From Mycolicibacterium neworleansense (lineage in GTDB: Bacteria; Actinomycetota; Actinomycetes; Mycobacteriales; Mycobacteriaceae), in NCBI RefSeq assembly GCF_001245615.1, contig NZ_CWKH01000001.1:248001-312000 (forward strand): DNA of 64,000 nt. Reading direction: 5' to 3'. The translations under genes were made by a program, and so were the position numbers. Each line of letters starts with the position of its first letter. Position 1 is the first letter of the stretch. Positions 8,886-61,921 of this stretch are shown here, piece by piece. The notes under the pieces were generated by a model that was not told the origin of the DNA, ran no database searches, and worked only from the letters and a program-made list of their open reading frames with translations.

Positions 8886-9799
8886 CGGGGCTACTCGGCT
8901 CCGAGGTCCCGGCCTCGGAGAAGCGCCGGAAGTTTCGTCGAGGCCTGGAGTCGGGGCGGCTCCTGCGTTTTCCCGGTGCGTTCTCCCCGCTGGTGGCCAA
9001 GCTCGTCGCGCAGATCGGTTTCGACGGCGTCTACGTTTCCGGTGCGGTGCTGTCCGCCGACCTGGGTCTGCCCGACATCGGGTTGACGACGCTGACAGAA
9101 GTGGCGGGCCGTGGCGCCCAGATCGCTTCAGCCACAGACCTTCCGACGTTGATCGACGCCGACACCGGATTCGGCGAACCGATGAGTGCGGCCCGAACGG
9201 TGACGTTGCTCGAAGACGCGGGCCTGACCGGACTGCACCTCGAAGATCAGGTCAATCCCAAGCGATGCGGGCATCTCGACGGGAAAGCAGTGGTGGAGAC
9301 TTCCGAGATGGTCAAGCGGCTGCGCGCCGCTGTCTCGGCGCGGCGTGACCCGGACTTCATCATCTGCGCCCGCACCGACGCTGCGGGGATCGAGGGGATC
9401 CCCGCAGCGATCGACCGGGCCAAGGCCTACGCCGGCGCGGGGGCCGACCTGATCTTCACCGAGGCGCTGCACACTCCGGCGGATTTCGAGCAGTTCCGGG
9501 AAGCGGTCGATGTTCCGCTGCTGGCCAACATGACCGAGTTCGGAAAATCCGAGCTGCTGACGACCCGGCAGTTGTCCGAGATCGGCTACAACATGGTGAT
9601 CTACCCGGTGACCACGCTGCGCTTGGCGATGCACGCAGTCGAGGTAGGACTGCGTGAAATCGCTTCGGCAGGAACACAATCCGGACTGATCGATCAGATG
9701 CAGCATCGAAGCCGGCTGTATGAGCTCCTGCGCTACCACGACTACAACCAGTTCGACTCGGACATCTACAATTTCTCGCTGCAAGGGGCGACAGCATGA
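8882..9799 (+). CDS. prpB: 2-methylisocitrate lyase
   Basis: 305 residues, isocitrate lyase/PEP mutase superfamily TIM barrel. It splits 2-methylisocitrate into pyruvate and succinate, the last step of the methylcitrate cycle. Visible are the Mg-binding region [14 protein letters not shown], and the catalytic loop KRCGHLDGK (usually KKCGH) with its active-site Cys. The longer upstream frame is ignored because ATG 8882 overlaps the prpD stop (ATGA) exactly as prpC overlaps prpB. M. tuberculosis lacks a dedicated prpB and uses isocitrate lyase instead, so its presence points to a species outside that lineage. Confidence 0.95.
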
Positions 9800-10954: not shown

Positions 10955-13900
10955 GTGGTCGACAAGGTTCTGGTCGCCAACCGCGGAGAGATCGCCATCC
11001 GCGCGTTTCGCGCGGCCTACGAGCTCGGTCTCGCAACGGTCGCGGTCTATCCGTACGAGGACCGTAATTCTCAGCACCGGTTGAAGGCTGACGAGTCGTA
11101 TCAGATAGGTGAGGAAGGACATCCCGTCCGGGCCCATCTTTCGGTCGACGAGATCATCCGGGTTGCTCTCCACGCGGGCGCCGACGCGATCTATCCCGGT
11201 TATGGGTTTCTCTCGGAGAACCCCGAGTTGGCCAGGGCATGCGATCAGGCCGGTATCGCGTTTGTGGGGCCTTCGGCCGACGTGCTGGAGCTGACCGGCA
11301 ACAAGGCCCGCGCCGTCGCCGAGGCCCGTAAGGCCGGACTGCCGGTGCTGGCATCGTCGGACCCGTCGAGTTCGGTGTCCGAGTTGCTGGCCGCCGCCGA
11401 GGCGATGAGTTTCCCGCTGTTCGTCAAGGCCGTCGCCGGTGGCGGTGGCCGGGGGATGCGGCGGGTCAACGACGTGGGCGATCTGAAGGAGGCGATCGAG
11501 GCCGCCAGCCGGGAAGCGCAGTCGGCGTTCGGGGATCCCACGGTGTTCCTCGAGCAGGCAGTGATCAACCCGCGCCACATCGAGGTGCAGATCCTGGCGG
11601 ATACTCAGGGCAACGTGATCCACCTCTTCGAACGGGACTGCAGCCTGCAGCGGCGCCACCAGAAAGTCATCGAGCTGGCGCCCGCCCCCAATCTGGATCC
11701 TCATCTGCGGGAACGGATCTGTGCCGACGCGGTGGCGTTCGCCCGCCAGATCGGGTACTCGTGCGCGGGTACGGTGGAATTCCTGCTCGATGAGCAGGGA
11801 CGGCACGTGTTCATCGAGTGCAATCCCCGGATCCAGGTCGAGCACACGGTGACCGAGGAAATCACCGATGTCGACCTGGTGTCGTGTCAGCTGCGCATCG
11901 CGGACGGGGCGTCGTTGTCCGATCTCGGACTCGCCCAGGACGCGTTGAAGATTCGCGGTGCTGCCCTGCAGTGCCGGATCACCACTGAAGATCCCAGCAA
12001 CGGATTCCGTCCCGATACCGGCCGCATCACCGGATATCGCTCACCCGGTGGCGCCGGCGTCCGACTGGACGGCGGCACCAACCTCGGGGCCGAGGTGTCG
12101 GCGCATTTCGATTCGATGCTGGTGAAGCTGACCTGCCGCGGCCGCGACTTCCCGACGGCGGTGGCCCGCGCTCGCCGCGCCGTGGCGGAGTTCCGGATCC
12201 GCGGACTATCGACCAACATCCAGTTTCTGGCCGCGGTCCTGGAGGACCCCGAATTCGTCGCCGGGAGGGTGACAACGTCGTTCATCGAGCAGCGGCCCCA
12301 GCTGCTCACCGCGCGCGCCAGCGCCGACCGCGGCACCAGGATTCTCAATTATCTGGCCGATGTCACCGTCAACCAGCCGCATGGTCCCCGTCCGTCAGCG
12401 GTCTACCCGCGCGACAAGCTTCCCGCGTGCGACTTGAGCGTGGCTCCACCCCCGGGTTCCAAGCAGCGCCTGACCGAGCTCGGCCCTGACGGTTTCGCCC
12501 GATGGCTGCGCGACAGCAGCGCAATCGGCGTGACCGACACCACCTTTCGCGATGCGCATCAATCGCTGCTGGCCACCCGGGTGCGCACCAGTGGACTGCT
12601 GCGCGTCGCGCCCTACATCGCCCGCACGATGCCGCAGCTGCTGTCCGTCGAATGCTGGGGCGGTGCCACCTACGACGTCTCATTGCGGTTCCTCAAGCAG
12701 GATCCCTGGGAGCGGCTTGCGGCGTTGCGCGAAGCGCTGCCCAACATCTGCCTGCAGATGTTGTTGCGGGGGCGGAACACGGTGGGCTACATACCGTATC
12801 CGGAATCGGTGACCCACGCGTTCGTCGACGAGGCCGCGGCCACCGGTGTCGACATTTTCCGGATCTTCGACGCACTGAACAACGTGAAGTCGATGCGCCC
12901 GGCGATCGACGCGGTCCGCGGCACCGGCACGGCGGTCGCGGAAGTCGCGATGTCCTACACCGGAGATCTGTCTGATCCGCGTGAATCGCTCTACACGCTG
13001 GACTATTACCTCTTCCTGGCCGAGCAGATCGTCGAGTCCGGCGCGCATGTTCTGGCCATCAAGGACATGGCGGGCCTGCTGCGGGCGCCTGCGGCCACGA
13101 CGCTGGTGTCTGCTCTGAAATCGCGGTTCGATCTGCCCGTGCATGTGCACACCCACGACACCCCGGGCGGCCAGTTGGCCACCTATGTCGCGGCGTGGAA
13201 TGCCGGTGCCGATGCCGTCGACGGTGCGGCAGCTCCGCTGGCCGGAACCACGAGTCAGCCGGCGTTGTCCTCGATCGTGGCCGCCGCTGCGCACACCACC
13301 TACGACACCGGGCTGTCACTGGACGCGGTGTGTGACCTTGAGCCGTACTGGGAAGCTCTGCGCCGGGTCTACGCACCATTCGATGTCGCGGTTGCCTGTC
13401 CTTCATTTCCCACGGGGCGCGTGTACACCCACGAGATTCCGGGCGGGCAGCTGAGCAATCTGCGTCAGCAGGCCATCGCGCTCGGTCTGAGCGGTCGCTT
13501 CGATGACATCGAGGCGAACTACGCTGCGGCGGACCGGATGTTGGGCCGGCTGGTGAAGGTCACCCCGTCGAGCAAGGTGGTGGGCGATCTGGCACTGGCG
13601 ATGGTCGGCGCGGGCATCGATGCCGACGACTTCGCCTCCGACCCGGCTCGCCACGACATCCCCGACAGTGTGATCGGGTTCCTGCGGGGTGAGCTGGGGG
13701 ACCCTGCCGGCGGTTGGCCGGAACCGTTGCGCACCAAGGCTCTGCACGGCCGGGATCCGGCCAAGCCGATCCAAGAGTTGTCCGCCGAGGACGAAACGGT
13801 GCTGGCTGCGCCGGGGCCGAAGCGTCAGGCGACCTTGAACCGGCTGCTGTTCCCTGGCCCCACAGCCGAATTCGAGGCGCATCGAGATGAGTACGGCGAT

Positions 13901-14350
13901 ACCTCGCGGCTGAGTGCCAATCAGTTCTTCTACGGGTTGCGGCACGGCGAGGAGCACCGGGTCAAACTCGAACCCGGGGTCGAATTGCTGATCGGGCTGG
14001 AGGCGATCTCCGAACCCGACGAGCGGGGGATGCGCACGGTGATGTGCATCCTCAACGGACAACTACGACCGATTGTGGTGCGGGACCGCAGTATCAGCGG
14101 CGGGGCCCCAGTAGCCGAGAAGGCCGATCGGGCCAATCCGGCCCACATCGGTGCTCCCTTCACCGGCGTGGTCACGGTCAACGTCTCCGAAGGCGATACC
14201 GTCGAGACCGGTCAATCCATCGCCACCATCGAGGCCATGAAGATGGAGGCGACCATCACTGCGCCTGAATGCGGCACGGTCAAAAGGATCGCGATTGCGC
14301 AGACCGCGCAGGTCGAAGGTGGCGACCTTCTCGTCGTCGTCGGTCAGTAG
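10955..14350 (+). CDS. pyc: Pyruvate carboxylase
   Basis: 1131 residues; ATP, bicarbonate and biotin-dependent conversion of pyruvate to oxaloacetate in the cytosol. Domains in order: biotin carboxylase N-domain (about 1-115, starting KVLVANRGEIAIRAFRAAYE), ATP-grasp with GGGGRGMRRV (about 165), biotin carboxylase C-domain to about 450, carboxyltransferase TIM barrel from about 525 (DTTFRDAHQS; metal site HVHTHDTPGG), PYC/OADA region, and a biotinyl domain with EAMKMEA, the biotinylated Lys at about 1096. Length fits single-chain pyruvate carboxylase. GTG start behind GGAAAGGA, 25 bp after prpC. Oxaloacetate made here is the co-substrate of PrpC, and pyruvate is the product of PrpB, so the neighbourhood makes metabolic sense. 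Confidence 0.95.
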   Translation: MVDKVLVANRGEIAIRAFRAAYELGLATVAVYPYEDRNSQHRLKADESYQIGEEGHPVRAHLSVDEIIRVALHAGADAIYPGYGFLSENPELARACDQAGIAFVGPSADVLELTGNKARAVAEARKAGLPVLASSDPSSSVSELLAAAEAMSFPLFVKAVAGGGGRGMRRVNDVGDLKEAIEAASREAQSAFGDPTVFLEQAVINPRHIEVQILADTQGNVIHLFERDCSLQRRHQKVIELAPAPNLDPHLRERICADAVAFARQIGYSCAGTVEFLLDEQGRHVFIECNPRIQVEHTVTEEITDVDLVSCQLRIADGASLSDLGLAQDALKIRGAALQCRITTEDPSNGFRPDTGRITGYRSPGGAGVRLDGGTNLGAEVSAHFDSMLVKLTCRGRDFPTAVARARRAVAEFRIRGLSTNIQFLAAVLEDPEFVAGRVTTSFIEQRPQLLTARASADRGTRILNYLADVTVNQPHGPRPSAVYPRDKLPACDLSVAPPPGSKQRLTELGPDGFARWLRDSSAIGVTDTTFRDAHQSLLATRVRTSGLLRVAPYIARTMPQLLSVECWGGATYDVSLRFLKQDPWERLAALREALPNICLQMLLRGRNTVGYIPYPESVTHAFVDEAAATGVDIFRIFDALNNVKSMRPAIDAVRGTGTAVAEVAMSYTGDLSDPRESLYTLDYYLFLAEQIVESGAHVLAIKDMAGLLRAPAATTLVSALKSRFDLPVHVHTHDTPGGQLATYVAAWNAGADAVDGAAAPLAGTTSQPALSSIVAAAAHTTYDTGLSLDAVCDLEPYWEALRRVYAPFDVAVACPSFPTGRVYTHEIPGGQLSNLRQQAIALGLSGRFDDIEANYAAADRMLGRLVKVTPSSKVVGDLALAMVGAGIDADDFASDPARHDIPDSVIGFLRGELGDPAGGWPEPLRTKALHGRDPAKPIQELSAEDETVLAAPGPKRQATLNRLLFPGPTAEFEAHRDEYGDTSRLSANQFFYGLRHGEEHRVKLEPGVELLIGLEAISEPDERGMRTVMCILNGQLRPIVVRDRSISGGAPVAEKADRANPAHIGAPFTGVVTVNVSEGDTVETGQSIATIEAMKMEATITAPECGTVKRIAIAQTAQVEGGDLLVVVGQ

Positions 14351-14351
14351 G

Positions 14352-14379
14352 TCGACCGCGGGATCGGCCATGCGGTCGA
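14352..14379 (+). terminator. Hairpin after pyc
   Basis: Perfect 8-bp arms TCGACCGC (14352-14359) and GCGGTCGA (14372-14379) with a 12-nt loop immediately after the pyc stop. There is no T-tract, as is common for mycobacterial terminators. It would separate the prp-pyc unit from the iron-regulated genes. Confidence 0.45.
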
Positions 14380-14749
14380 GGAGGCGGCCTGGGCCTGACC
14401 GCGGCCCCAAAATCGGCTCACGAGAAATTTTGTGAATTGAGGCAGTCGTCGGTGCCGGCTGCCTACACGGACTTGGCTGTGACGTGACCCGCGGGGCCGA
14501 AAACCGACCACAACCGCCCAGGCTGCTGCGCGGCGCTGTTCGCCATGATCTTCCCGCCGCGTTGCTACCGCACTCACAGCAACTTCACAGTTGGGCGTGT
14601 TGGTGCGAAGCCGGTGCATGCGTTGCGGAGAGCGCGAAAAGCGCTGTTGTACTGCGCGTTTGAAATTGACGCCGAATTTTCCTGGCGGTGGTGAGTCGTC
14701 TCGCGCGCCGCGTTGAGTGCCGAAAGGGACGCCCCACCGCCGGAAAAGT

Positions 14750-14768
14750 ATTGGTTAGTCTCACCTCG
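14750..14768. promoter_or_regulatory. IdeR iron box upstream of mbtK
   Basis: The core GGTTAGTCTCACCT matches the 19-bp IdeR consensus TTAGGTTAGGCTAACCTAA at 13 of 19 positions, including nearly the whole central part. Iron-loaded IdeR binding here would repress the mycobactin genes that follow. A weaker match (about 11 of 19) lies before mbtL at about 15674-15692. Confidence 0.7.
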
Positions 14769-14923
14769 CTGATCTGAGGAGGCTGCGGGTCGGGGCGTGG
14801 CGCACACCTATTGGTGGCGCCCCCTGACTCGCACCGTGGACAGGGGGACTTGGCTTTGACGTGTGATGAAGTGCTGCAGCGCAGCGCAACTGGCATCTCG
14901 GTATCTCGAACGCAGCGCGCGGC

Positions 14924-15601
14924 GTGACCAACGTGTCGTCGCAGGCGGGGGTTGCCACGGCCGAATCGCTGACGCGGCATGATGGTGACTCGCCGGACTA
15001 TCCGGTGCTTCCACGGGAACTCAGGAACGTTTCCGACGCGGTGCGGCGCACTCCCGGGCCGCCGGTTCCACAATTGTTGCGGCCAAGCGCGATTCGTGTC
15101 GCCACCGATGGAGATTCCGCGATGATCGCGGAGTGGATGAATCGACCACACCTGGCCAAGGCCTGGGAGTATGACTGGCCCGTCGAACGCTGGCGCGCGC
15201 ATCTGAAAGCTCAGATCGAGGGCGACTACTCACTGCCACTCGTGTTGAGCATCGCCGGGGTAGACCGCGGGTATCTCGAAATATACCGGGCGGCCAAGGA
15301 TTCCATCGCCGATCGATACGACAGCCAGCCGCACGATCTGGGTCTGCACGGAGCCATAGCTGACGTGGAGTTGGTAGATCGTGGCCTCGGCCCCAAACTC
15401 CTGCCCAAGATCGTCGCAAGCATCCTGACCGCCGATCCGGACTGTCAGCGGATCATGTTCGACCCCGACCACCGCAATGCCACGGTGCGCGGGTTGTGTG
15501 AATTCGTCGGGTGCCGGTTCCTCGGCGAACACGAGATGTCCAACCGCAGGATGGCGCTCTACGAACTCGGCCGGAACACCGCCCGGCAATGGATGACCTG
15601 A
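14924..15601 (+). CDS. mbtK: Mycobactin lysine N-epsilon-acyltransferase
   Basis: 225 residues, GNAT fold of the siderophore acyltransferase type (MbtK/IucB). It transfers the long fatty acyl chain from the MbtL carrier to the side-chain amine of the (hydroxy)lysine of mycobactin. After a variable, probably disordered N-terminus (about 1-55) come conserved elements: [38 protein letters not shown], the acetyl-CoA loop region [10 protein letters not shown], and [23 protein letters not shown] 14924 is chosen, but the true start could be further in. It lies downstream of an IdeR box and is followed by mbtL and mbtM, the same functional set as the M. tuberculosis mbt-2 locus. Confidence 0.9.
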
Positions 15602-15714
15602 GTCCCGGCTTGGCCAAAGCTGCTGTCTGGCAGATGTTCCCAATCAGTTCAACAGATTTCGTACTGCAAAAGGAAAGGTGAGGCTGGCCGCGTGGGCCGG
15701 CCAGGTATGCACAT

Positions 15715-50040: not shown

Positions 50041-52626
50041 CTAGCTGACGTCGAAGGCGCGGGCCCGTAGGGAGCGCTCCACACCGGCGCGGCCCTCGAC
50101 CACCAGGCGACGCAGCGCGGGCGGCACCTCGGGATCGGACAGGAACGCGTCCGCCGCATCCAGCCCGTTCTGGCTGATGTCCCACGACGGGTACAGCCCG
50201 ATCACCACGGTCTGCGCGACCTCGCTGGACCGGCGCTCCCACACTCCGGAGATCGCCGCGAAGTAGCGGGTCGTGAAGGGCGCCAGCAGCTCGGACTGAC
50301 CGGGCTGCACGAATCCGCCGACGATCGCGCGGGTGGTGATGTTGGCGATCGTGTCGTCCTCGATGACCTGCTCCCATGCCGCGGACTTCACCTCGTCCTG
50401 CGGACGGGCAGCCGAGGCCGCCGCCGCGTGACGCTTGCCGGCCGCGGTGGGGTCGTTCTGTGCCTCGGTGTCGATGAACGGCGTCTCGGGCCCGTCGGCG
50501 TCGATGTCGCCGTTGCGGGCCAGCGCGGTGACGATCCGCCAGCGCAGATCGGTGTCGATCACCAGGCCGGGCAGGTTCACCGCGGCGGGCTCGTTGTCGA
50601 GCAGCGTCGACAGCACGGCGACGTGGTTCGGCGACAGGACCGAGCTGCAGAGCGCGTTGACGAACGCGAGCTGATGATCAGAACCCGGCGCGGAGGTGCC
50701 GGCCAGATCGAGCAGGGCATCGGCGAACGCCGGCCAGCCGGTCTCGTGGGCCCAGGCGGGATCGGCGTATGAGCTCAGCGCGGTCTGCGCCTGCATGAGC
50801 AGGCGCTGCGCGACCCCGACCTCGGTCTCGGCGTGCACGCCGCTCATCACCAGGGCGACGAAGTCGCGGGCCTTCATCTCGGCTTCGCGGGTCATCTCCC
50901 AGGCAGCCGACCAGGCCAGCGTGCGGGGGAGCGGATCAGCGATGTCGGCGATCCGGGACAGCACCGTCGACAGTGAGGCCGGGTCCAGCCGCAACGAGCA
51001 GTAGGTCAGGTCGTCGTCGTTGACCAGGATGAGCTTTCCGCGCGAAACGCCCAGCAGCGCAGGAACATCCGTGAGCGGACCTTCGACGTCGAGCTCCTCG
51101 CGGTGCACCCGGACCAGCTTGCCCGAGCCGTCGTCGTCGTAAATGCCGACGGCCAACCGGTGTACCCGCGTCTCCCCGGCGCCCGGCGCCGCGCCCGACT
51201 GCGCGATGGCGAACCGGGTGAATGCACCGGAATCGTCGGTGTCGAAGTCGGCCCGCAGCGTGTTCAGACCCGTTGTCTTGAGCCACTGTTGGCCCCAGCC
51301 GGACAGATCACGCCCAGAGGACTTCTCCAGTGCGCCCAGCAGATCGCCGAACGTGGCGTTGGCGAACGCGTGGTCGCGGAAGTAGTCGCGCAGGCCGGAC
51401 AGGAACTCTTCGAGCCCGACGTAGGCCACCAGCTGCTTGAGCACCGAGGCGCCCTTGGCATAGGTGATGCCGTCGAAGTTGACCTCCACGGCCGCCAGGT
51501 CCGGGATGTCGGCGGCGACCGGGTGAGTCGAGGGCAACTGATCCTGCCGGTAGGCCCAGGACTTCTCCACGTTCGCGAAAGTGGTCCAGGCCGTGTCGTA
51601 TTCGGTGGCCTCGGCCTGGCACAGCACCGACGCGAACGTCGCGAAGGACTCGTTGAGCCACAGGTCATCCCACCACTGCATGGTGACCAGGTCGCCGAAC
51701 CACATGTGCGCCATCTCGTGCAGCACGGTCTCGGCGCGACGCTCGTAGGAGGCCCGGGTCACCTTGGACCGGAAGACGTAATCCTCGAGGAACGTCACCG
51801 CGCCGGCGTTCTCCATGGCGCCCGCGTTGAACTCGGGCACGAACAGCTGGTCGTACTTGCCGAAGGCGTACGGCGTGCCGAAGTTGGCGTGGTAGAAGCC
51901 GAAACCCTGCTTGGTCTCGGTGAACAGCCGGTCGGCGTCCATGAACTCCGCCAGCGAGGCCCGGCAGAAGATGCCCAACGGGATCTCACCGTGGGAGTCG
52001 GAGTACGAGTCGCGCCACGCCGCGTACGGTCCGGCGATCAGCGCGGCCAGGTAGGTGCTCATCTTCGGGGTGGTGGCGAAGGTGTGCACGGTGGCCGGGC
52101 CGTCAGGCTCGGCGCTGACGGTCGCCCCGTTGGAGATCACCTGCCAGTGCGACGGCGCGGTGACCTGCACGTCGAAGGTGGCCTTCAGGTCGGGCTGATC
52201 GAAGCAGGCGAACATCCGCTTGGCATCGGCGGTCTCGAACTGCGAGTACAGGTAGACCTCGTCGTCGACGGGGTCTACGAAGCGGTGCAGGCCCTCTCCG
52301 GTGTTGGAGTACAGGCAGTCGGCATCGACCACCAGGACGTTGTGCTCGGTCAGGCCGGTGAGTGCGATCCCGGTCGATTCGTCGTAACCGGATACGTCGA
52401 GTGCGACGCCGTTCAGCGTCGCGCTGCGGACGGTCTCGGCGGCCAGATCGATGAAGGTATCGGCGCCGGCGAGGGCATCGAACTGCACGGTCGTGGTGGA
52501 ACGGAAGGTGCGTTCGCCCGGCTTGCCGTTGCCGTCGGTGAGATCGAGGACGACGCGGTAGTTGTCGACGGTGACCAGAGCGGCGCGCTCGATGGCCTGT
52601 TCGCGGGTGAGATTGGGAAGTGCCAC
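50041..52626 (-). CDS. pepN: Aminopeptidase N, M1 family
   Basis: 861 residues, zinc metallopeptidase that removes N-terminal amino acids from peptides. Motifs are the substrate-anchoring GAMEN in NAGAMENAGAVTF and the zinc site HEMAHMWFGDL with the third ligand Glu in LWLNESFATF. Domains are the N-terminal beta saddle, the thermolysin-like catalytic domain (about 200-450) and the C-terminal helical domain. Cytosolic, no signal. Order next to the HNH and DUF5130 genes is as in the Rv2467 region. Upstream begins the AT-rich accessory region. Confidence 0.95.
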   Translation of the reverse strand: MALPNLTREQAIERAALVTVDNYRVVLDLTDGNGKPGERTFRSTTTVQFDALAGADTFIDLAAETVRSATLNGVALDVSGYDESTGIALTGLTEHNVLVVDADCLYSNTGEGLHRFVDPVDDEVYLYSQFETADAKRMFACFDQPDLKATFDVQVTAPSHWQVISNGATVSAEPDGPATVHTFATTPKMSTYLAALIAGPYAAWRDSYSDSHGEIPLGIFCRASLAEFMDADRLFTETKQGFGFYHANFGTPYAFGKYDQLFVPEFNAGAMENAGAVTFLEDYVFRSKVTRASYERRAETVLHEMAHMWFGDLVTMQWWDDLWLNESFATFASVLCQAEATEYDTAWTTFANVEKSWAYRQDQLPSTHPVAADIPDLAAVEVNFDGITYAKGASVLKQLVAYVGLEEFLSGLRDYFRDHAFANATFGDLLGALEKSSGRDLSGWGQQWLKTTGLNTLRADFDTDDSGAFTRFAIAQSGAAPGAGETRVHRLAVGIYDDDGSGKLVRVHREELDVEGPLTDVPALLGVSRGKLILVNDDDLTYCSLRLDPASLSTVLSRIADIADPLPRTLAWSAAWEMTREAEMKARDFVALVMSGVHAETEVGVAQRLLMQAQTALSSYADPAWAHETGWPAFADALLDLAGTSAPGSDHQLAFVNALCSSVLSPNHVAVLSTLLDNEPAAVNLPGLVIDTDLRWRIVTALARNGDIDADGPETPFIDTEAQNDPTAAGKRHAAAASAARPQDEVKSAAWEQVIEDDTIANITTRAIVGGFVQPGQSELLAPFTTRYFAAISGVWERRSSEVAQTVVIGLYPSWDISQNGLDAADAFLSDPEVPPALRRLVVEGRAGVERSLRARAFDVS

Positions 52627-52862
52627 CCGTCCAACCTAGTGGCTGGCCGTCGGTGGGGTGCGTCTAAGGCCGTCGGGGCGTGCACCGACCGCGTCTGGTC
52701 GGCTGGTCCCGACGGAGGGGCCGAGGACTGTGTGGCGTAAGTGATTGTGCCACAGCAGTTTCCGCTTAGGTCCACAATCTCGCCGGCGTGGCCCGACAAC
52801 GGAGTTTCCTTTCAACGGTGGCGCCTGGAAGTTGCAGCGTGCAAATTGTCTTTGCGATAGCA

Positions 52863-52887
52863 AATTTTCGATTTATAGTCGAAAATT
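52863..52887. repeat. 9-bp perfect inverted repeat AATTTTCGA-N7-TCGAAAATT
   Basis: Arms at 52863-52871 and 52879-52887 are in the most AT-rich part of the region before the surface-protein genes. It may be a regulator site or a hairpin. No gene starts nearby on either strand except pepN, 240 bp away. Confidence 0.6.
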
Positions 52888-53556
52888 AAATTGAAATAAC
52901 GGCCATCCCATTCGGAAATAATCGCCACAAATTGCGGTTTCGGCCCAGAAAGTATAGTCTGTCTATTTTCTTGACGGTCCATTCAAAGTTATTCGATGGC
53001 CGTTCTTGTGATTCCCTGCGCCGCAGCGGATCTCGGGAGTAGTCAGCGGCTATGAATAGTTGCTGCAATATGTCGACATCCCATTTCTGGCGTCGATTTT
53101 GGCCGCCTGCAGTTGTGGGGACAGCAACGTTTAGGCGACGGTTCCGGCTGTGCACTCCGCGGTGGGTGGATTCTCAAATATGGCCTTTTAACTGGGTATA
53201 TATGGCCGTGGAAGAGGCATGCGGCTGGTTTACCTCACGGCCAGAGCGGTCGCAGGCAATGTGGCGACTGTCGTGGGCGATGCGCAATGAGCCAAGAGGC
53301 GAAATTGCTAGAGCATCTACCTAAGTATTGCCTGAGGAATTCATGCTCAGCTGTATCGGTGCAGCTCAAAATGTTAATATCAAGTCGATCGGGAAAGGTC
53401 CACGGAGGCGGCAGGTAATGCTGTGGGGCATTCCTCGAAAGTCTCCGTGATAGGTGACAAAAGTCCCTAGCGATAAATGGGTTATCTCCCTATCTTCGCA
53501 ACGGTATTTCCCTATTCAGCGAATTCAATGAGACCCATGTGGATTCGTGCACCCCT

Positions 53557-53574
53557 GGGCTCGTCATGAGCGGG
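53557..53574 (+). repeat. Leader repeat, copy 1
   Basis: 18 bases reading GGGCTCGTCATGAGCGGG, 23 nt before the start of the 1606-residue protein. It matches copy 2 (58589-58606) at 16 of 18 positions, and both are followed by ATGAAAGGA and then the start codon. The inner GCTC/GAGC can pair. Confidence 0.65.
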
Positions 53575-53597
53575 CCTTCAAATGAAAGGAAACTGTC

Positions 53598-56500
53598 ATG
53601 GCAACCAAGAAGAACACCAGGAGGATTGCGATCCGGAGGTCGGTGACCGCGGCCGGTGTACTCGCAGCCACCACCGCTGGGCTGCTCAGTCACCAGGCTG
53701 GTGCCTCAGCAGCGTGGGCGGTAGAGCTCAAGTCCTATTCAGACGCCCTGAGCGACATGCTGACCAGAACCAATGATGAGGACGGCAGGTCCAATCGGTT
53801 CTGGGCTTCGGAAGCCTCTGCGGCGCACGGCGACGCACGCACTTTGGCCGACGCGCAGGCGCTCGCTGACGCGATCGCGCAGAAAGCCAAGGATGCTGCG
53901 GCGCGAGCCGGGGAGTATGAGGCCGAGGCAGAGTGGATCGCCCAGGAGGTCGCGGGGAACACCGCGGTCGCCGAGAAGCAGGCAGCGGCGAAGTCCGCTG
54001 CGGAGAAGGCTCAGTTGGCGCGCCATGATGCCGAAATCGCAGCACAGGCAGCCCAGGAGGCCCAGGCCGCGGTGGACGCGCTGGCAGCCGCCCAGGCTGA
54101 AGCGCAGGCGGCCGCGGCTGCCGTCGAACAGGGATATCTCGATGCCAAGGCTGCGGCGGATGTTGCAGCCGCGCAGCAGCGGTCGGCGGAGGCCGCCAAG
54201 GCCGAAGCAGAACAGGCGTTCGCCGCCGCGCAGACCCATGCGGCTGAGGGTGGCCAGGCCTACCTGGACGCCAAGGCTGCCTTGGATACGGCGACTGCGC
54301 AGCAACAGCAGGCGGACGCCGTACAGGCTGCGGCAAAGAGCGCGCTCGCCGATGCACAGGCCACCGCCGCGGCGAACGAGAAGGCACTTGCGGACGCGAA
54401 CAGCGCACTGGTTGCGGCCGATAAGGTTGCCGGAGAGGCACTGGCCGCCAAAACCGACTCCGATGCGGCGCTGTCGACCGCCCAGCGGGCTGCCGCAGAG
54501 GCGGCGGCCGTCAAGGATGAGGCCGCGCAGAAGGCCAGCGATGCGGATAAGGCCGCTGCGGATGCAGCAGCGGTGCAGGTCGCTGCCGACCAGGCTTTCG
54601 CCGATGCCCAGATCCATGCAGTCCAGAGCGACCAGGCCTACCTGGACGCCAAGACTGCTCTCGATGCGGCTTCGGCCGACAAGGCAGTCAAGGACGCTGC
54701 CAAGGAAGCCGCTGACACCGCGCTGGCGGACGCCCTAGCGGGTGTGGCCGACGCCGAGCGGGCGGCAGCCGAAGCGGCCGCTGCGAAGTCGGCTGCCGAT
54801 GAGGCTGCCGCGGATGCGTTGGCGGCCAAGACCGCTGCCGATGAGTCGGTGTCGGCAGCAACGACCGCAGCGCAGGCTGCTGATGCGGACAAGGTGACCA
54901 AGGATGCCGCGAAGGTGGCTGCCGATGAGGCTGCCGCGGATGCGTTGGCGGCCAAGACCGCTGCGGATGCGGCGCTGTCCGATACCAAGGACGCGGCCGA
55001 TGCGGCCGACGCCGTCCTGGCCAAGGCCACCGCGGACAAGGCTGCGGCCGACGCCGACAAAGCGGCCAAGGGTGACGCCATGACCGTCGCCGATCAGAAC
55101 GCCGTCGCGGCGGAGGCTGCCGCGGAGGCTGCTGATGCGGACAAGGTGGCCAAGGATGCCGCGAAGGTGGCTGCCGATGAGGCTGCCGCGGATGCGTTGG
55201 CGGCCAAGACCGCTGCTGATGCGACGCTGTCCGATGCGCGGGCAAAGGCTGCCGCGGCCGACGCTGCCGCGGCGGACCTGCATGCCTATGAAGACCCGGT
55301 GCACGCCGCCTTGCAAGATGCGCGGGACGCCAAAGCGGACGCCGACAAGGAGTTGAGTGACGCGCAGGCAGCGATCGCCGGCATCGAGCAGGCCAAGGCC
55401 TATGCGGTCACCGCGGATGCCAATGTGCAGACCACCGCGACCGCCTTGCAGCAGGCCAAAGCAGCCGCGACGGCCACTCAGGCGCAGATCGACGCGGCTC
55501 AGGCCGAGGTCAACTACTACGCCTATGACCCGGTAGGAAAGGCTCAAGACTGGGCCTCGGGCTATGCCTTGCAGGGTGCGGCCCTGGACAAGCTCAACGC
55601 AGCGAGGGCGCAACTCGTGCTGGATCAGGCTGCTGTGTCCTCGGCGCAACAGGCTGCGGATGACGCGGTGGTCGCCAAGACGGCTGCCGACGCGGCCGCG
55701 GCTAACGCCCAGACTCAAGAAGCGGCGGCCAAGGCTGCGGTTGACTCGGCCAAGTTGGCCGTTTCCATCGCAGATGCCAACTTCGCGTCCGCAACCCAGG
55801 GGGTGGCCACGCTGACGCAGATGATCGCCGATGCTGACGCGGCCAAGGCATTGGCGGACAAGGAATTACAAGACGCGACCACGGTGGCTTCGGCTGCTGA
55901 TTCGGCGTCGGTTGCTGCGGATCAGCACGCTACTGAGGCAACGACGGCTGCTGAGGCGGCGGCACAGGCCAAGGCAGATGCGGACCAGGCGTTGTCGGAT
56001 GCGAACCGGGCTGCGTCGGATGCGCTGGCGGCCAAGACCGTCGCAGACCAGAATGCGATCGAAGCAAAGGCGGCGGCCGATGCCGCGGCTGAGGCCAAGA
56101 GTGCTGCCGACCAGGCGTTAGCGGACGCAGAGAAGGGGGCCTTTGACGCGGCTGCTGCAGCCGAGGATGCTGCCGATGAGGCCGCGGTCGCTGCCAAAGC
56201 GGCGACCGACGCTTCGGACGCAAAGGATCTGGCCGATCAGAGGGCTGCCGATGCGAACCAGGCTGCTCAGGATGCGCTGGCGACCAAGACCGCCGCGGAC
56301 CAGGATGCGCTCGAGGCCAAAGCGGCCGCGGACGCGGCTGTGGCAGCCAAGGTGGCCGCAGACAATGCCCTGGCCGCCGCCGAAAGTGCTGCCGCCGATG
56401 CGGTGACCGCCTCGGATGTGGCCGACGAAAAGATCGTCGATGCGACGAAGGCGGTGGCCGATGCGCAAGCCGCCAAGGACCTTGCCGACCAGGCGTTGGC

Positions 56501-58418
56501 GGCGGCCGATCAGGCTGCCAAGGATGCGCAGTCCGCACAGGAATCGCTGGCCCAGGCTGCTGACGACGCCAACAAAGCCGCCTCGGACGCCGCGGCCGCC
56601 AAGGAAGCCGCGGACGCGGAGGCTGCTGACGCCGCCAAGGCCGCTGCCGATGCGACTGCCGTCCAAGAAGCTGCCGACCAGAGCGTCGCTGACGCCAAGG
56701 CGGCTGTCGAGGACGCCGCAGCAGCGAAGACCGTCTCCGATAGCGCGCTCGCCGATGCACAGACGGCATACCAGGATGCCGCAGCAGCGAAAGATAGTGC
56801 AGATCAAGTTCTTTCGGGTGTGACACAGGCTGCTGCGGATGCCGCGGCGATCAAGGCCGCTGCCGACGAGGCATTGACCGAAGCTGAAGCCGCTGCGGAG
56901 ACTGCGAGGCAAGACGCCGACAGTGCGAGCGAGAAGGCTTCTGCTGCAGACATGGCCGCAACCGAAGCGGAGGCTGCCAAGGCTGCCGCAGACAAGGCTT
57001 TGGCGGATGCGGAAAAAGCAACTGCGGATGCGCAAGCTGTTAAGGATGCGGCTGTCGCCAAGGCTAGCCAGACCGCCGACGCGATGCAGGCCGCGACCGA
57101 TGCTGCCACAGCTGCTGAAACCGCCGCACAGCAGGCCGTACAGGACCAGAAGGGTACCCACGTCCTGCGTCACGACGTGGATCGTCAGCTACCGGGTGGC
57201 CTGGCTTCTGCTGGTGCGTATTCGATTTCGGTGATGGTGCGGGGTGAGCATGGGATGTACATGCCGGTGTCCTCGACGGTCTCCTACGTGTCGGTGCCGA
57301 TGCTGGGATTCGGTGTGACCCATGCGAATCAGACCAAGCACAACTATGTCGGAATCGAGGGTGTGAATGTAGATTTCGGTCAGAACGTGCTGGTGATCGA
57401 GACTCCGCTGAATGTGGGCAATCCGGTGTCGTTGGTGTACTCGATGGGCGGATTCAGCATCGGGCCCAACGGTGTGGGTTACACCGCTCCGTCGCTGTTC
57501 GGGGTGAGTTTGATCCCGCCGGTACAGATCGGGGCCGTACCCGGAATCGATGCTCGGACGGGGGTGCCGATTCAGGATCTGATTCCGCTGGATGCGATCT
57601 CGCCGAAGGGTTCGACGACGGTGTCGGCTGACATCGTCAAGGCGTTGACGCCGCTACACGACAAGTCTGGCGCACCGATGCTCCAAGCGATCTCGGATCG
57701 GCTGACTCAGGCGCGGGCGGACTACGACACAGCGGCGACGTTGCCGGGTGCCGACGAATCGTTGCGGGAGCTGGCTGGTCAGCTCAAGGAGCGGATCGAC
57801 TGGATGCCTGAAAAGCTCGTACCGGTGGGCACGACTCAGGCGACGGCGGCCGAGACCCCGGAGACAACTGTGCCGTCCGGCAGCGTCATCACCGATGGTC
57901 CTGCCGCGGTTCCGGTGACCGGCACCCCCCGGTCCGTGGCGCTCGATGTGCCGAGCACCGATAAGACAGTCGTCGCTGATGATTCGGCCCCATCCGCAGC
58001 CGATACCCCTGGGGGAGTTACCCGCGATGCTGTGGAGTCCACGGTTGGGTCTGTGCCTGACATCAAGGTCGAGGCGAAGGCTGAGGCTGACGCCAACGCC
58101 GAGGTGAAGTCTGTGGTCAGGTCAGAAGCTAAGGCCGACGCGAAGACCGAGGCAAAGTCTGAAGCAAAGCCCGGCGCGAAGCCCGAGGCCGGCGCCAAGG
58201 TTGACGACACTCGGAACAAGCGTTCTGAGGGCGGTTCGGCCAGCAGTGGACAGCGGGCTGCGGAGAAGTCCGGCGTTGCTGGCCGGGTCAAAGCCCCTGT
58301 CGGCGAGAAGGATTCGAAGTCCGGTAAGCCAGGTGGCGCCAAGGCGGGCACATCGTCTTCGTCGGGTGGTGCATCCACGGGATCGACTGATTCTGCCGGT
58401 GGTGGTTCGACCAAGTAG
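53598..58418 (+). CDS. Giant secreted Ala-rich coiled-coil protein, surface-fibre candidate
   Basis: 1606 residues, family not recognised. Start ATG 53598 with GAAAGGAAAC upstream. Layout: basic signal peptide (about 1-38; RRIAIRRS then a hydrophobic stretch ending GASA); short N-domain with NRFWA at 66-70; Ala-rich helical rod from about 75 to 1185 built of A/D/K/E repeats with coiled-coil or 11-residue character; a beta-rich globular domain at about 1198-1312 (GYTAPSLFG at its end); an amphipathic stretch; and a disordered Lys/Ala tail from about 1411 ending in Ser/Gly repeats. The rod has internal DNA repeats of about 90 bp (e.g. 54881-54971 and 55132-55222). N-domain, globular domain and tail recur in the next gene. 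Probably exported to the envelope; if fully helical the rod could reach over 150 nm. A perfect 12-bp hairpin follows. Confidence 0.8.
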   Translation: MATKKNTRRIAIRRSVTAAGVLAATTAGLLSHQAGASAAWAVELKSYSDALSDMLTRTNDEDGRSNRFWASEASAAHGDARTLADAQALADAIAQKAKDAAARAGEYEAEAEWIAQEVAGNTAVAEKQAAAKSAAEKAQLARHDAEIAAQAAQEAQAAVDALAAAQAEAQAAAAAVEQGYLDAKAAADVAAAQQRSAEAAKAEAEQAFAAAQTHAAEGGQAYLDAKAALDTATAQQQQADAVQAAAKSALADAQATAAANEKALADANSALVAADKVAGEALAAKTDSDAALSTAQRAAAEAAAVKDEAAQKASDADKAAADAAAVQVAADQAFADAQIHAVQSDQAYLDAKTALDAASADKAVKDAAKEAADTALADALAGVADAERAAAEAAAAKSAADEAAADALAAKTAADESVSAATTAAQAADADKVTKDAAKVAADEAAADALAAKTAADAALSDTKDAADAADAVLAKATADKAAADADKAAKGDAMTVADQNAVAAEAAAEAADADKVAKDAAKVAADEAAADALAAKTAADATLSDARAKAAAADAAAADLHAYEDPVHAALQDARDAKADADKELSDAQAAIAGIEQAKAYAVTADANVQTTATALQQAKAAATATQAQIDAAQAEVNYYAYDPVGKAQDWASGYALQGAALDKLNAARAQLVLDQAAVSSAQQAADDAVVAKTAADAAAANAQTQEAAAKAAVDSAKLAVSIADANFASATQGVATLTQMIADADAAKALADKELQDATTVASAADSASVAADQHATEATTAAEAAAQAKADADQALSDANRAASDALAAKTVADQNAIEAKAAADAAAEAKSAADQALADAEKGAFDAAAAAEDAADEAAVAAKAATDASDAKDLADQRAADANQAAQDALATKTAADQDALEAKAAADAAVAAKVAADNALAAAESAAADAVTASDVADEKIVDATKAVADAQAAKDLADQALAAADQAAKDAQSAQESLAQAADDANKAASDAAAAKEAADAEAADAAKAAADATAVQEAADQSVADAKAAVEDAAAAKTVSDSALADAQTAYQDAAAAKDSADQVLSGVTQAAADAAAIKAAADEALTEAEAAAETARQDADSASEKASAADMAATEAEAAKAAADKALADAEKATADAQAVKDAAVAKASQTADAMQAATDAATAAETAAQQAVQDQKGTHVLRHDVDRQLPGGLASAGAYSISVMVRGEHGMYMPVSSTVSYVSVPMLGFGVTHANQTKHNYVGIEGVNVDFGQNVLVIETPLNVGNPVSLVYSMGGFSIGPNGVGYTAPSLFGVSLIPPVQIGAVPGIDARTGVPIQDLIPLDAISPKGSTTVSADIVKALTPLHDKSGAPMLQAISDRLTQARADYDTAATLPGADESLRELAGQLKERIDWMPEKLVPVGTTQATAAETPETTVPSGSVITDGPAAVPVTGTPRSVALDVPSTDKTVVADDSAPSAADTPGGVTRDAVESTVGSVPDIKVEAKAEADANAEVKSVVRSEAKADAKTEAKSEAKPGAKPEAGAKVDDTRNKRSEGGSASSGQRAAEKSGVAGRVKAPVGEKDSKSGKPGGAKAGTSSSSGGASTGSTDSAGGGSTK

Positions 58419-58432
58419 TTCCTGACCCGGCC

Positions 58433-58459
58433 GGTGGGGATCGCAAAGCGATCCCCACC
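58433..58459 (+). terminator. Intrinsic terminator after the giant surface protein
   Basis: Perfect 12-bp stem GGTGGGGATCGC / GCGATCCCCACC with loop AAA, 14 bp after the stop codon. No T-tract. It indicates that the next gene needs its own promoter in 58460-58631. Confidence 0.8.
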
Positions 58460-58588
58460 CCCGAGGGTGCGGGCTCTCGGACCGTCGTGCTGGCCGTAAA
58501 CCTGAACGGATCAGCCATCTTCGAGGTGCGCACGAGTCCGAGATTCCGCCATATCTCCCGATGGCCATCCGCGGTCATGACATCGAGC

Positions 58589-58606
58589 GGGCCCGTCACG
58601 AGCGGG
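58589..58606 (+). repeat. Leader repeat, copy 2
   Basis: GGGCCCGTCACGAGCGGG, 25 nt before the start of the 641-residue protein and followed by ATGAAAGGA. It matches copy 1 at 53557-53574 in 16 of 18 bases. Conservation of this non-coding element suggests that the duplication included the leader and that it matters for expression. Confidence 0.65.
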
Positions 58607-58631
58607 CTCTCACATATGAAAGGAGCTGGCC

Positions 58632-60557
58632 ATGGCCGGCAGCAAGTCAAAGAAATCAAGAAAGAGTGCGGTGCGTCGGCCCGCGGCGACCGCAGGTATC
58701 TTCGCCACTGCCACCGCCGTTGGGCTGATGGCCTCGGCCGGCAACGCCTCTGCAGCCGCGCCCGATTATGCCGATGATGTGTCGAAGTTCTCGCACAGTA
58801 TCGACAACGTCGTCAGCGGTCTTACCCATACCACCGATGCCTTCAATAGGTTCTGGGCGCCCTTGGCGGCCAATGCTAATGGCGTGCTGCCCACCTTCAG
58901 TGCCAGCAACGAGAAGGTTGACATGACCGACATCTCGGAATTTCCGAGTGTCGTGCGCGCGATAGCCCGGGTACCGATGCCGACTGCTTTACCCGGGGTT
59001 GTTCCCCAGATCAACATTCCCGGCCAAGGCTTCGAGACGTTGCCTGTACCGACGTCACTGCCCGGTGCGGACCTGTTGGTCGGTTTCGCCGACGGCCTGG
59101 ACGCAGTCTTCAACGTTCCTGGAGTGGATTGGATTGTCGGCAGTATCCCGCCGCTCAGTGAGCTGGTTCCGGGTCTCGAGGCGACGCAGCAGACCTTCCA
59201 CTCTGGCTTCGGGGTACCGCTGCTCGGCATCGGCGGCTCGACGTCGGTGTCCAACACCTATGTGCAGACTCCGCCCGGCTCCCCGTCGATCACGGCGGAT
59301 CTGCCGGTGGCCCAAGGGGTGTACACGTTCCCGCTCGATGCGGCGATGGGTTGGTGGGCAGCGGCACCGACGTTGGCGGTATCCGATGGGATCAGCCAGA
59401 ACGATTTCGTGATCTCGCTGCCGACGGCAGCCGCCGGTCTCGAGGTACCGGGCGGCCTCGGACAAGCCGGCGTGTTCAGTGTGGCGGCTGTCCTGCCCAG
59501 CGCCAGCGGGCTCTACATACCCGTCGGTGCAACAATTTCCAACGCCTCGATTCCCTCACTCGGGTTCGGGCTCACCACCCTCAATGTCAGCAGCGGCAAC
59601 TACGTCGGCACCGACGGGGTCAACCTCAATAACGGACAGAACATCCTCGTGATCCAGAATCCGTTGACCGGTGCTGTGCCGATCCCGATCATCTATTCAC
59701 TGGGCGGTTTCAACTTGGGGCCGGAAGGGATCGGCTACACGGCACCGTCGCTGTACGGCATCAGCCCGATCTCGCCGATTCAGATCGGAACCGCGTCCAC
59801 GGGTCGCGATGCAGTAGGCATCATTCCGGCTGATCTGATTCCGGTCGGCGACATCCTGCCGACGCAACTTGTCTCGGTATCGGGATTGGCCTCGGGTCTG
59901 TTGGGCTTCGAAGACCCTTCGGCGGCCATCGGTAGCGGGCTGGCTCCGATCTACAGCGCGGTCGTCACGCCAGGTGCCCAGCAGTTATCGAACTTGCTCG
60001 CGCAGGAGTATGGCTCAATCGTGGATTCCTTGGCGTCCTCCGTTCTGCAGGCAAGTCAGGACTTCAAGAATCTGACCGATCGGATCGCGGCGAGATCCGC
60101 CACATCGCTCCCGTCGCTGCAGACCGAGTCGGTATCGGTGGTCCTCGACGAGGAGCCGGTCGCAAAACGGGTCGCGCCGGCGTCGGCTGCGCTGACATCG
60201 ACTCAGACCGCCCCTGTCGCCATCACACCGCAGGAGGCGGCGTCCCAGGACGTCGCCTCGGCCACGGCCGCGCCGACGACCACCAGCGGTGCATCGAACA
60301 AGGTAGACCCAGTGCCGTCGGATTCGCCGGAGAAACCGGAGAAGCCGGTTAGCGCGAAGGCCTCGCTTGGCGGCACCAAGACCCCGTCTCGTGAGCGGAC
60401 CAAAGCTGCTGTGCAAGGAGCGGTAAAGTCGATCACCACCAAGGTCAAGGACATCGCCAAAGTGTCGGGTCAGGGAACGAAGTCCGCGTCGGCGAAGAAA
60501 CCCACAAGTTCGAGTTCGTCGGGATCAGCCGGTTCCAGCGGAGGATCCGCTGACTGA
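58632..60557 (+). CDS. Secreted paralogue of the giant surface protein
   Basis: 641 residues, family not recognised. Start ATG 58632 with GAAAGGAG upstream. A signal peptide (about 1-42; AVRRPAAT then a hydrophobic stretch ending GNASA) is followed by NRFWA at 72-76. A Pro/Gly-rich segment (about 95-200) comes next, then a beta-rich region of which residues about 273-386 align with the domain in the giant protein: PGGLGQAGVFSV, FGLTTLNVSSGNYVG and GYTAPSLYGISPISPIQIG. The tail from about 490 is Ala/Ser/Lys-rich and ends in SSSSSGSAGSSGGSAD, like its neighbour. There is no coiled-coil rod. It could be the tip, anchor or minor subunit of the same surface structure. Ends in a strong bidirectional hairpin. 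Confidence 0.8.
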   Translation: MAGSKSKKSRKSAVRRPAATAGIFATATAVGLMASAGNASAAAPDYADDVSKFSHSIDNVVSGLTHTTDAFNRFWAPLAANANGVLPTFSASNEKVDMTDISEFPSVVRAIARVPMPTALPGVVPQINIPGQGFETLPVPTSLPGADLLVGFADGLDAVFNVPGVDWIVGSIPPLSELVPGLEATQQTFHSGFGVPLLGIGGSTSVSNTYVQTPPGSPSITADLPVAQGVYTFPLDAAMGWWAAAPTLAVSDGISQNDFVISLPTAAAGLEVPGGLGQAGVFSVAAVLPSASGLYIPVGATISNASIPSLGFGLTTLNVSSGNYVGTDGVNLNNGQNILVIQNPLTGAVPIPIIYSLGGFNLGPEGIGYTAPSLYGISPISPIQIGTASTGRDAVGIIPADLIPVGDILPTQLVSVSGLASGLLGFEDPSAAIGSGLAPIYSAVVTPGAQQLSNLLAQEYGSIVDSLASSVLQASQDFKNLTDRIAARSATSLPSLQTESVSVVLDEEPVAKRVAPASAALTSTQTAPVAITPQEAASQDVASATAAPTTTSGASNKVDPVPSDSPEKPEKPVSAKASLGGTKTPSRERTKAAVQGAVKSITTKVKDIAKVSGQGTKSASAKKPTSSSSSGSAGSSGGSAD

Positions 60558-60569
60558 ATCGAACGAGAC

Positions 60570-60610
60570 GTCGGGTTCTGTTGGGTCTGGGCGACCCGAC
60601 AGAACCCGAC
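60570..60610. terminator. Bidirectional hairpin terminator
   Basis: 18-bp arms (60570-60587 and 60593-60610) with one T-G pair and a 5-nt loop, between the 641-residue protein gene and the convergent DUF732 gene. No T-tract on either side. Confidence 0.8.
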
Positions 60611-60618
60611 CGTTGGTT

Positions 60619-61023
60619 CTACTGGGGGAAGCCGGCGATCCCGGCGAGTCCGTTCAGCGCGCCCAGGTTGTTCAGGATCGAGCCGTCGCTGATCGACGAC
60701 ATCATCTGCGGGCAGTACATCTGGATGGCGATCCCGGTGAAGAACGAGGCCATCTGCGGGGACATGCCGCCGTCGCCACGCATCTGGGAGGCCACCGACG
60801 CGAAGTCCTTACCGGGCTCGACCAGCATCGGACAGACGTCCTGGCCCATCTGGACAGCGGTGTTGGGGTCGCCGTAGCCCACCCCGGCGTCGTTCAGCGC
60901 GTTCAGGAACGAGCTGTCGGTCGTCGGATCCGGGACCGGGATCGGGTCGGCCTGCGCGGGGACTGCCAGCGCGAGGGCGGCCACGACCGCACCCGCAGTC
61001 GCCAGAAAGGCACGAGCGGCCAT
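60619..61023 (-). CDS. Secreted DUF732 family protein
   Basis: 134 residues from ATG 61023 with a GAGGAGC-type ribosome site. Signal peptide about 1-25 (AFLATAGAVVAALALAVPAQA, cleavage after AQA) leads a small mature domain typical of mycobacterial DUF732: FLNALNDAGVGYGDPNTAV and GQDVCPML, with a second Cys in MYCPQMM that can pair with the first. The C-terminus is Gly/Leu-rich. Function is unknown; the family is abundant in mycobacteria and secreted or envelope-located. It converges with the surface-protein pair and may belong to the same insertion. Confidence 0.88.
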   Translation of the reverse strand: MAARAFLATAGAVVAALALAVPAQADPIPVPDPTTDSSFLNALNDAGVGYGDPNTAVQMGQDVCPMLVEPGKDFASVASQMRGDGGMSPQMASFFTGIAIQMYCPQMMSSISDGSILNNLGALNGLAGIAGFPQ

Positions 61024-61229
61024 GTTCAGCTCCTCAGCTATCACGCAGAACCCTTATATCGCTCTGCTCACTTGGGCAACAGTGGTTGACCAGGGTCACA
61101 GGAACAACACGTTTCGGTAAAGCTTCGCGCACTTTGCGTTTCCTGTGCTGCTCCCGTGACTTCAGCATGCATGTCGACATGCGCGTCACCAAACTTGTCG
61201 TAATCGATCGCCGGATAGTTACTCGGATC

Positions 61230-61257: not shown

Positions 61258-61303
61258 GTGCTGAATGCAGTTGTGCCGTGAACCACATCGAGAGGACGCG
61301 CAG

Positions 61304-61921
61304 ATGGCCCAGAAGGATCAGAAGGACACCGCCGGTTTCTGGTTCGACCCGCTGTGCCCGTGGTGCTGGATCACCTCGCGCTGGATCCTCGAAGTCGAGA
61401 AGGTCCGCGATATCGACGTGCAGTTCCACGTAATGAGCCTCGCGGTGCTCAACGAAGGCCGTGACCTGCCGGAGAACTATCAGGAGCTGATGAGGAAGGC
61501 ATGGGGACCGGTGCGGGTGGCCATCGCCGCCGAGCAGCTCAAGGGCCCCGAGATCCTCGGACCCCTCTACACCGCCATGGGGTTCCGGATTCACAACCAG
61601 GACAACAAGGACCTCGATCAGGTCATCGCACAGTCGCTCGAGGAGGTCGGCCTGCCCGCCGAATTGGCCGAGGCGGCCACCACCGACAAGTACGACGAGG
61701 AACTGCGCAAGAGCCACCATGCCGGCATGGATGCCGTCGGTGACGACGTCGGCACCCCGACCATCCACGTCAACGGTGTCGCCTTCTTCGGTCCGGTGCT
61801 GTCGAAGATTCCGCGCGGCGAGGAAGCAGGCAAACTCTGGGACGCGTCGCTGACGTTCGCGTCCTATCCGCATTTCTGGGAGCTGAAGCGCTCCCGCACG
61901 GAGGCGCCTGAGTTCGACTAG
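61304..61921 (+). CDS. DsbA-family mycothiol-dependent oxidoreductase (Rv2466c-like)
   Basis: 205 residues from ATG 61304 (AGAGGA upstream). Thioredoxin fold with a helical insertion; the active site CPWC lies in [15 protein letters not shown] (about residues 15-22), and the cis-Pro in VGTPTIHV. No signal peptide, so it acts in the cytoplasm, where such proteins use mycothiol to reduce oxidised substrates or nitro compounds. A SigH-type promoter upstream fits oxidative-stress induction. It marks the return to the conserved gene order after the accessory insertion. Convergent with kdgK, sharing CTAG. Confidence 0.92.

Follow-up and report, generated by a model that had tools for sequence, protein, structure and literature searches.

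A chimeric gene for a predicted coiled-coil rod, inserted with its beta-sheet neighbour between core genes of Mycolicibacterium neworleansense

The protein families known to reach the surface of mycobacteria are few, and it is an open question how the mycomembrane receives its proteins. HBHA has a Lys/Ala-rich tail, is about 200 aa long and has no signal peptide; in streptococcal antigen I/II a long Ala-rich heptad stalk bears a beta domain. For HBHA, homophilic coiled-coil contacts have been proposed to act in agglutination (PMC8875947), and the giant extracellular proteins of Apilactobacillus are described as very large secreted surface proteins (PMC12863079). Here we describe two adjacent genes in a stretch of 64,000 nucleotides of Mycolicibacterium neworleansense (contig NZ_CWKH01000001.1, positions 248,001 to 312,000; hereafter the window, to which all coordinates refer unless a locus is named). 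The first encodes P0001, a chimeric rod/beta protein of 1,606 aa (53598..58418), and the second P0002, a stand-alone beta-family protein of 641 aa (58632..60557). Both open reading frames (ORFs) are on the plus strand, 213 bp apart, and neither contains an internal stop. In the literature searched, nothing was recognised on either protein family. Surface proteins with long coiled coils have been described before; both families, and the exchange of modules between them, add a new form to this kind.

The earlier note on this DNA had seen here a tandem of exported-looking paralogues of like plan, with exact coordinates, and this was borne out by comparison of the two proteins. By eye, both N-termini are basic at first and then hydrophobic, with AxA-like sites that are rich in Ala. 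In P0001 the putative signal peptide, of the beta-family type, covers approximately residues 1–38 (53598..53711, plus strand) and is followed by an N-domain (approximately residues 39–84, 53712..53849, plus strand) with the motif NRFWA, which is also present in P0002. The N-termini of the two proteins match with an E value of 2e-4. The beta region of P0001 (residues 1197–1344, 57186..57629, plus strand), corresponding to the second half of the family's sheet, is 48% identical to residues 271–418 of P0002 over 149 aa (E 7e-42). Both proteins end in a Lys-rich, then Ser/Gly-rich tail, which in P0001 is Lys/Ala-rich in its first part (58065..58415, plus strand). Export of both is well indicated by these sequences. 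Neither protein had a match above cut-off in Pfam or NCBIfam, so that the claim of no described family holds for the libraries searched; at E <= 1 no Pfam family was found in P0001, and a sequence search of the PDB gave no relative of P0002.

A profile of the beta family, of which P0002 is a full-length row and P0001 is not a row, matched P0001 in two pieces, at residues 4–78 (profile positions 6–84) and 1197–1594 (298–678), with an E value of 2e-59 and nothing between. P0001 has no counterpart of profile positions 85–297, a range that takes in the first half of the predicted sheet, and its residues from about 89 to 1185 align with other rods. On these alignments P0001 is a chimera, in which a beta-family leader, signal peptide and N-domain are followed by a rod that replaces the middle of the protein, and then by the second half of the sheet and the tail. 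The rod had been described as separating the N-domain from the beta domain; it does lie between them, but it has also taken the place of this part of the family's profile.

A comparison with M. houstonense bears on the history of the fusion. There the rod is a separate protein of 1,950 aa, encoded 785 bp downstream of a beta gene, in which no beta domain was detected; its N-terminus resembles those of the Mycobacteroides-type rods, from which P0001 differs. The leader of P0001 is similar to the leaders of P0002 and the beta gene of M. houstonense, and unlike the leader of the rod gene there. Just 5' of the ribosome-binding site all three similar leaders can fold into a stem of 7 bp with the loop TYAYGAG, if G-U pairs are allowed (53559..53575 at the large gene and 58591..58607 at the second, both plus strand). 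Two of the stem pairs are compensatory, T-A in M. houstonense and C-G in P0002, which with three sequences is only suggestive of a real structure. The hairpin was rejected as a widespread element: with at most one mismatch, the own genome gave 4+3 matches against 4+1 for the reversed control. In M. houstonense the leader matches at 9203–9219 of locus L004 and just 5' of position 10001, one of them being a second exact match 5' of the beta gene; a start resembling that of P0001 comes after this match and runs into a stop after eight codons. Just after this decayed start, at approximately 9250–9620, the assembly has an N between two near-identical copies of about 150 bp. The simplest account, in which the direction is presumed, would be that a beta-family gene took up the rod in the lineage of the window, and that in M. 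houstonense the rod stayed a gene of its own and the greater part of the other copy was lost.

The ratio of nonsynonymous to synonymous substitution rates (dN/dS) between the window and M. houstonense was 0.15 in the beta domain; in the rod it was 0.17 at the centre and 0.22 at the end, with a range of 0.10–0.22 across the rod parts. Purifying selection acts on the beta domain and on the rod.

The rod of P0001 comprises residues 91–1184 (53868..57149, plus strand). Residues 81–1180 consist of 43.5% Ala, 12.2% Asp, 7.1% Gln and 6.6% Lys. Over residues 91–1184 a period of 3.50 residues was found with a power of 49, against a maximum of 9.4 in 1,000 shuffles, and there are super-repeats of 21 and 42 residues. 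These values agree with the long coiled-coil rod reported before, and a coiled coil is strongly indicated by the sequence. Three rods were tabulated by heptad position, and in each of their arms Ala occupies one position in 77–93% of cases. The two arms are joined by a central module (residues 560–680, 55275..55637, plus strand), which contains both prolines of the rod, a shift in heptad phase and the sequence NYYAYDPVGK (55512–55541). This shift is +3 in all six rods found, and the heptad phase is maintained over up to 2,438 residues.

The lengths of the N-arm and C-arm of the six rods are 549/544, 759/838, 1221/1216, 1179/1216, 1221/1216 and 1221/1020; the 1221/1216 pair has the same type of beta gene and is probably kin. 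All three departures from the common arm offset of -5 (+84, +42 and -196) are multiples of 7. Since turnover of 21-residue units accounts for +84 and +42 and not for -196, this suggests selection on heptad phase. The near-equal arms of three rods and the break at YYAYDPVG would allow an SMC-like hairpin. Arm length was rejected as proof of such a hairpin, as the arms match in half of the rods, the other three being 759/838, 1179/1216 and 1221/1020. Nor can the +3 shift serve as proof of antiparallel pairing: both arms have the same heptad pattern, and any loop length yields some shift. With a helix rise of 0.1485 nm per residue, the 1,094-residue rod is calculated to be about 160 nm long as a straight helix, and about 80 nm when folded back at the central YYAYDPVG module; for the longest rods up to approximately 360 nm was calculated.

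A 137-aa piece of the rod centre matched 6 of the 296 genomes of the genus: the own genome, M. houstonense (G248), G073, G317, G109 and G113, with E values from 6e-49 to 1.7e-10 for the five others. All six carry a beta gene, and it is from their beta genes that the last four were taken to be Mycobacteroides. The rods of these four, 3,183–3,380 aa in length, are encoded far from the beta gene, either on a different contig or at a distance of megabases, between neighbourhoods containing purA and fba (Pfam on L057). All four end in Gly-rich tails, of which that of G073 weakly matches PGRS (E 4.5e-4, below cut-off), and no beta domain was seen in the G073 rod sequence. Their rods proper, of 2,242–2,438 residues, are to our knowledge among the longest predicted bacterial coiled coils. 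The rods, that of P0001 included, are homologous at their start, in the central module and at their end, and each arm keeps to a single heptad phase; on this they form a giant Ala-heptad rod family. In L057 (5647–15759) and the matching genes of L058, L059 and L060, a further helical segment was observed, in which the few Cys residues lie. A rod-centre profile (A3) found the own genome only among 397 genomes of the order. When 20 chosen genomes were searched again with a rod profile, three matched, all already known.

The beta family is distributed more widely. A search with P0002 yielded 25 proteins, including P0003, which is identical to P0002, and a search with profile A2, limited to about 8,000 candidates, returned the same 25. 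Of the 24 matches besides P0003, alignment A1 took 14 and A2 took 15, and A2 also contains L022. In a search with the same limit no rod-length protein with the beta domain of P0001 was found; as P0001 itself was not returned, this says little about absence. The named genome loci are 17 in number: one in M. houstonense, seven of Mycobacteroides type (some labelled Mycobacterium sp.), eight in Tsukamurella and one in a Gordonia metagenome-assembled genome. Within the genus, 22 of the 296 genomes matched, the own genome included; a separate set of 61 relatives gave three matches, all within the genus. Members of A2 had weak single Pfam matches, to MT0933 antitoxin (6e-4), DotA (7e-3) and Tox-REase-2 (0.017), each in 1 of 17 and at no consistent place. 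The larger alignment A4 has 32 rows. It omits near copies (L020, L032–L035 and most of the P entries from Mycobacteroides) as well as L045, L047 and L049, whose frames are partial or split. Two irregular members were seen: in G108 (L047, L049) the gene is split into two frames near profile position 325, and a copy in G033 (L023) lacks positions 214–349. Adjoining the beta gene of L006, positions 12630–15701 encode an exported-looking protein of 1,023 aa with the same Lys to Ser/Gly tail, which suggests an exchangeable tail module. This protein was rejected as a PE-PPE protein, having no Pfam family.

At all seven Mycobacteroides-type loci the beta gene and the YrbE-like genes of an mce operon are divergently oriented; Pfam was applied to the mce-type genes of L009 (MlaE twice and MlaD) and L027, and the other six loci were assigned by BLAST clustering. 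In Tsukamurella the beta gene has an aceE-type gene nearby, together with a gene of acpM type, of kasA type or both (8/8 loci); these neighbour clusters were named from their sequences, and the annotation agrees in T. tyrosinosolvens.

AlphaFold2 models of P0002 predict a long antiparallel beta sheet at residues 183–386 (59178..59789, plus strand). It is nearly free of Lys and Arg, and the model resembles apoB and outer-membrane barrels, below Foldseek significance. Lipid contact of the sheet is moderately indicated. No MspA-type porin was among the matches listed, which excludes nothing.

The two genes form, as had been supposed, an insertion between core genes. In two close relatives (G020 and G021) the flanks of the window, aligned by blastn, are 18 and 11 nt apart; the left flank aligns at 52001–52646 in G020 or 52001–52653 in G021 and the right flank from 60619 onward, so that window 52647/52654–60618 is absent from G020/G021. 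The element (52654..60618, about 8 kb) carries as genes only those for P0001 and P0002, preceded by about 0.94 kb of AT-richer DNA (G + C content 0.53). Direct or inverted boundary repeats of 8–14 bp were not found. On its left lies pepN, encoding an M1 aminopeptidase (50041..52626, minus strand), and on its right a DUF732 gene (60619..61044, minus strand) and a gene for an Rv2466c-like mycothiol-dependent nitroreductase (61265..61921, plus strand), all three assigned by Pfam. The PepN and Rv2466c homologues of G020 and G021 are 91–95% identical to those of the window in protein sequence, and neither genome has a beta-family match. Of 29 loci from other genomes with the Rv2466c homologue, 27 have pepN in the 1.5 kb covered on that side. 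In M. houstonense the genes are at another site, where the beta gene is preceded at about 2 kb by a uracil phosphoribosyltransferase gene and the rod gene has a TetR-type gene downstream; no further ORF of that locus matched the window. Carriage on plasmids was considered and rejected. The rod centre had no plasmid match, and the sole plasmid match, in the 360-kb 'plasmid 18' of Tsukamurella, is surrounded by aceE, acpM and a KasA-type gene, so that this replicon looks chromosomal.

The best reading of these data, to which we give a probability of about 0.5, is a long spacer formed by a coiled coil, whose lipid-facing end lies in the mycomembrane. P0002 would be an exported envelope protein with a Sec-type signal peptide, an N-terminal helix, the antiparallel sheet, a long helix and a low-complexity tail, and its sheet is most likely packed against the mycolic-acid layer or inserted in it. 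In P0001 the middle of such a protein would have been replaced by a rod from the giant Ala-heptad family; folded as a coiled coil, it would serve as a molecular spacer that keeps the beta end and the basic tail at a distance from the wall or carries them across it. Location at the surface is weakly indicated, and a role in adhesion is a guess from rod-like adhesins elsewhere.

Several observations weigh against this reading. For P0002 none of the Foldseek matches to the PDB reached an E value of 1e-3 (best 0.019 and 0.020), most small-barrel matches had a root-mean-square deviation of 9–11 A, and the models do not demonstrate a closed barrel. The sheet region holds 2–26 Asp/Glu per row, as counted in 31 of the 32 A4 rows (L019 fell below the length filter), and the beta part of P0001, with 16 charged residues in 156, is less like a membrane sheet than that of P0002. 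The tail charge is not conserved, most Tsukamurella tails being acidic. The lipid-gene neighbours may reflect chance of core synteny, and the window and M. houstonense have other neighbours. The first 125 residues and the centre of the rod show the Ala phase weakly, and the arms agree to within 5 residues in the window, G073 and G109 rods only.

Of the other explanations, a periplasmic or wall-spanning tether, with the rod between inner membrane or wall and mycomembrane and the beta end in the outer layer, survives best, yet is unlikely. The mycobacterial envelope is about 35–40 nm thick, and rods of 80 to 160 nm, up to about 360 nm, are several times that; the PGRS-like tails of the giant rods (from the G073 match) also suggest exposure. 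The signal-like N-terminus, the coiled coil and the sheet without Lys/Arg would suit a tether, and corynebacterial proteins linking mycomembrane and wall have been described (PMC12632848). Rather less probable is that the beta family consists of soluble lipid-binding proteins, as the apoB-like model match and the mce neighbours could suggest, with the P0001 fusion as a neutral product of recombination. Against neutrality, the fusion is open over its 1,606 codons and most differences between its rod parts and M. houstonense are synonymous, although selection before and after the fusion is inseparable in this comparison.

The suggestion of the earlier note, one fibre in which the two proteins are stalk and cap or a major and a minor part, fared poorly. 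The tandem genes, similar leaders and shared domain had spoken for it, as does the beta gene in every rod genome; however, 16 of the 22 beta-positive genomes have no rod match (17 of the 20 searched again with the rod profile had none), the M. houstonense rod is separate and without a detected beta domain, the four giant rods are unlinked to their beta genes and end in Gly-rich tails, the G073 rod showing no beta domain, and the insertion holds no assembly genes. We regard such a fibre as very doubtful.

Still more speculative is an autotransporter-like architecture proper to mycolic-acid bacteria, in which oligomeric rods would have C-terminal half-sheets forming one mycomembrane barrel with the Ala-coil outward, P0001 being the rod-bearing form, by module exchange, of a monomeric P0002. 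P0001 shares with type V autotransporters a rod followed by a C-terminal beta segment, and autotransporter barrels are among the top, non-significant Foldseek matches of P0002. Autotransporter models of Pfam had no match in the family, no YadA-type C-terminal anchor was found in P0001 or P0002 at E <= 1, and Mycobacteriales are described as without homologues of the beta-barrel assembly machinery (PMC12632848). Least credible is a secreted low-complexity protein without specific structure (a matrix, desiccation or cold protectant), which the 43.5% Ala composition alone would permit and which the long-range heptad phase, the conserved central module and the low dN/dS of the rod contradict.

From their sequences, then, two undescribed families can be delimited, a beta-sheet protein of putative lipid type and the giant rods. 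The chimera indicates that the two modules are combinable, and it suggests small constructs for tests of location and lipid binding.

Compared with known systems, the Gly-rich tail of the G073 rod, with its weak PGRS match, recalls PE_PGRS proteins, from which the signal-like N-terminus and giant coiled coil differ; no PE domain was found, and P0001 has no PGRS match (Pfam, E <= 1). The giant proteins of Apilactobacillus are alike in size and secretion, in an unrelated lineage and by description only. With HBHA, P0001 has the coiled coil in common; its rod is more than five times as long and is joined to a beta region, a distinction drawn by description, not sequence. In antigen I/II, also compared by description only and from a different lineage, the plan of a stalk and a beta domain is like that of P0001.

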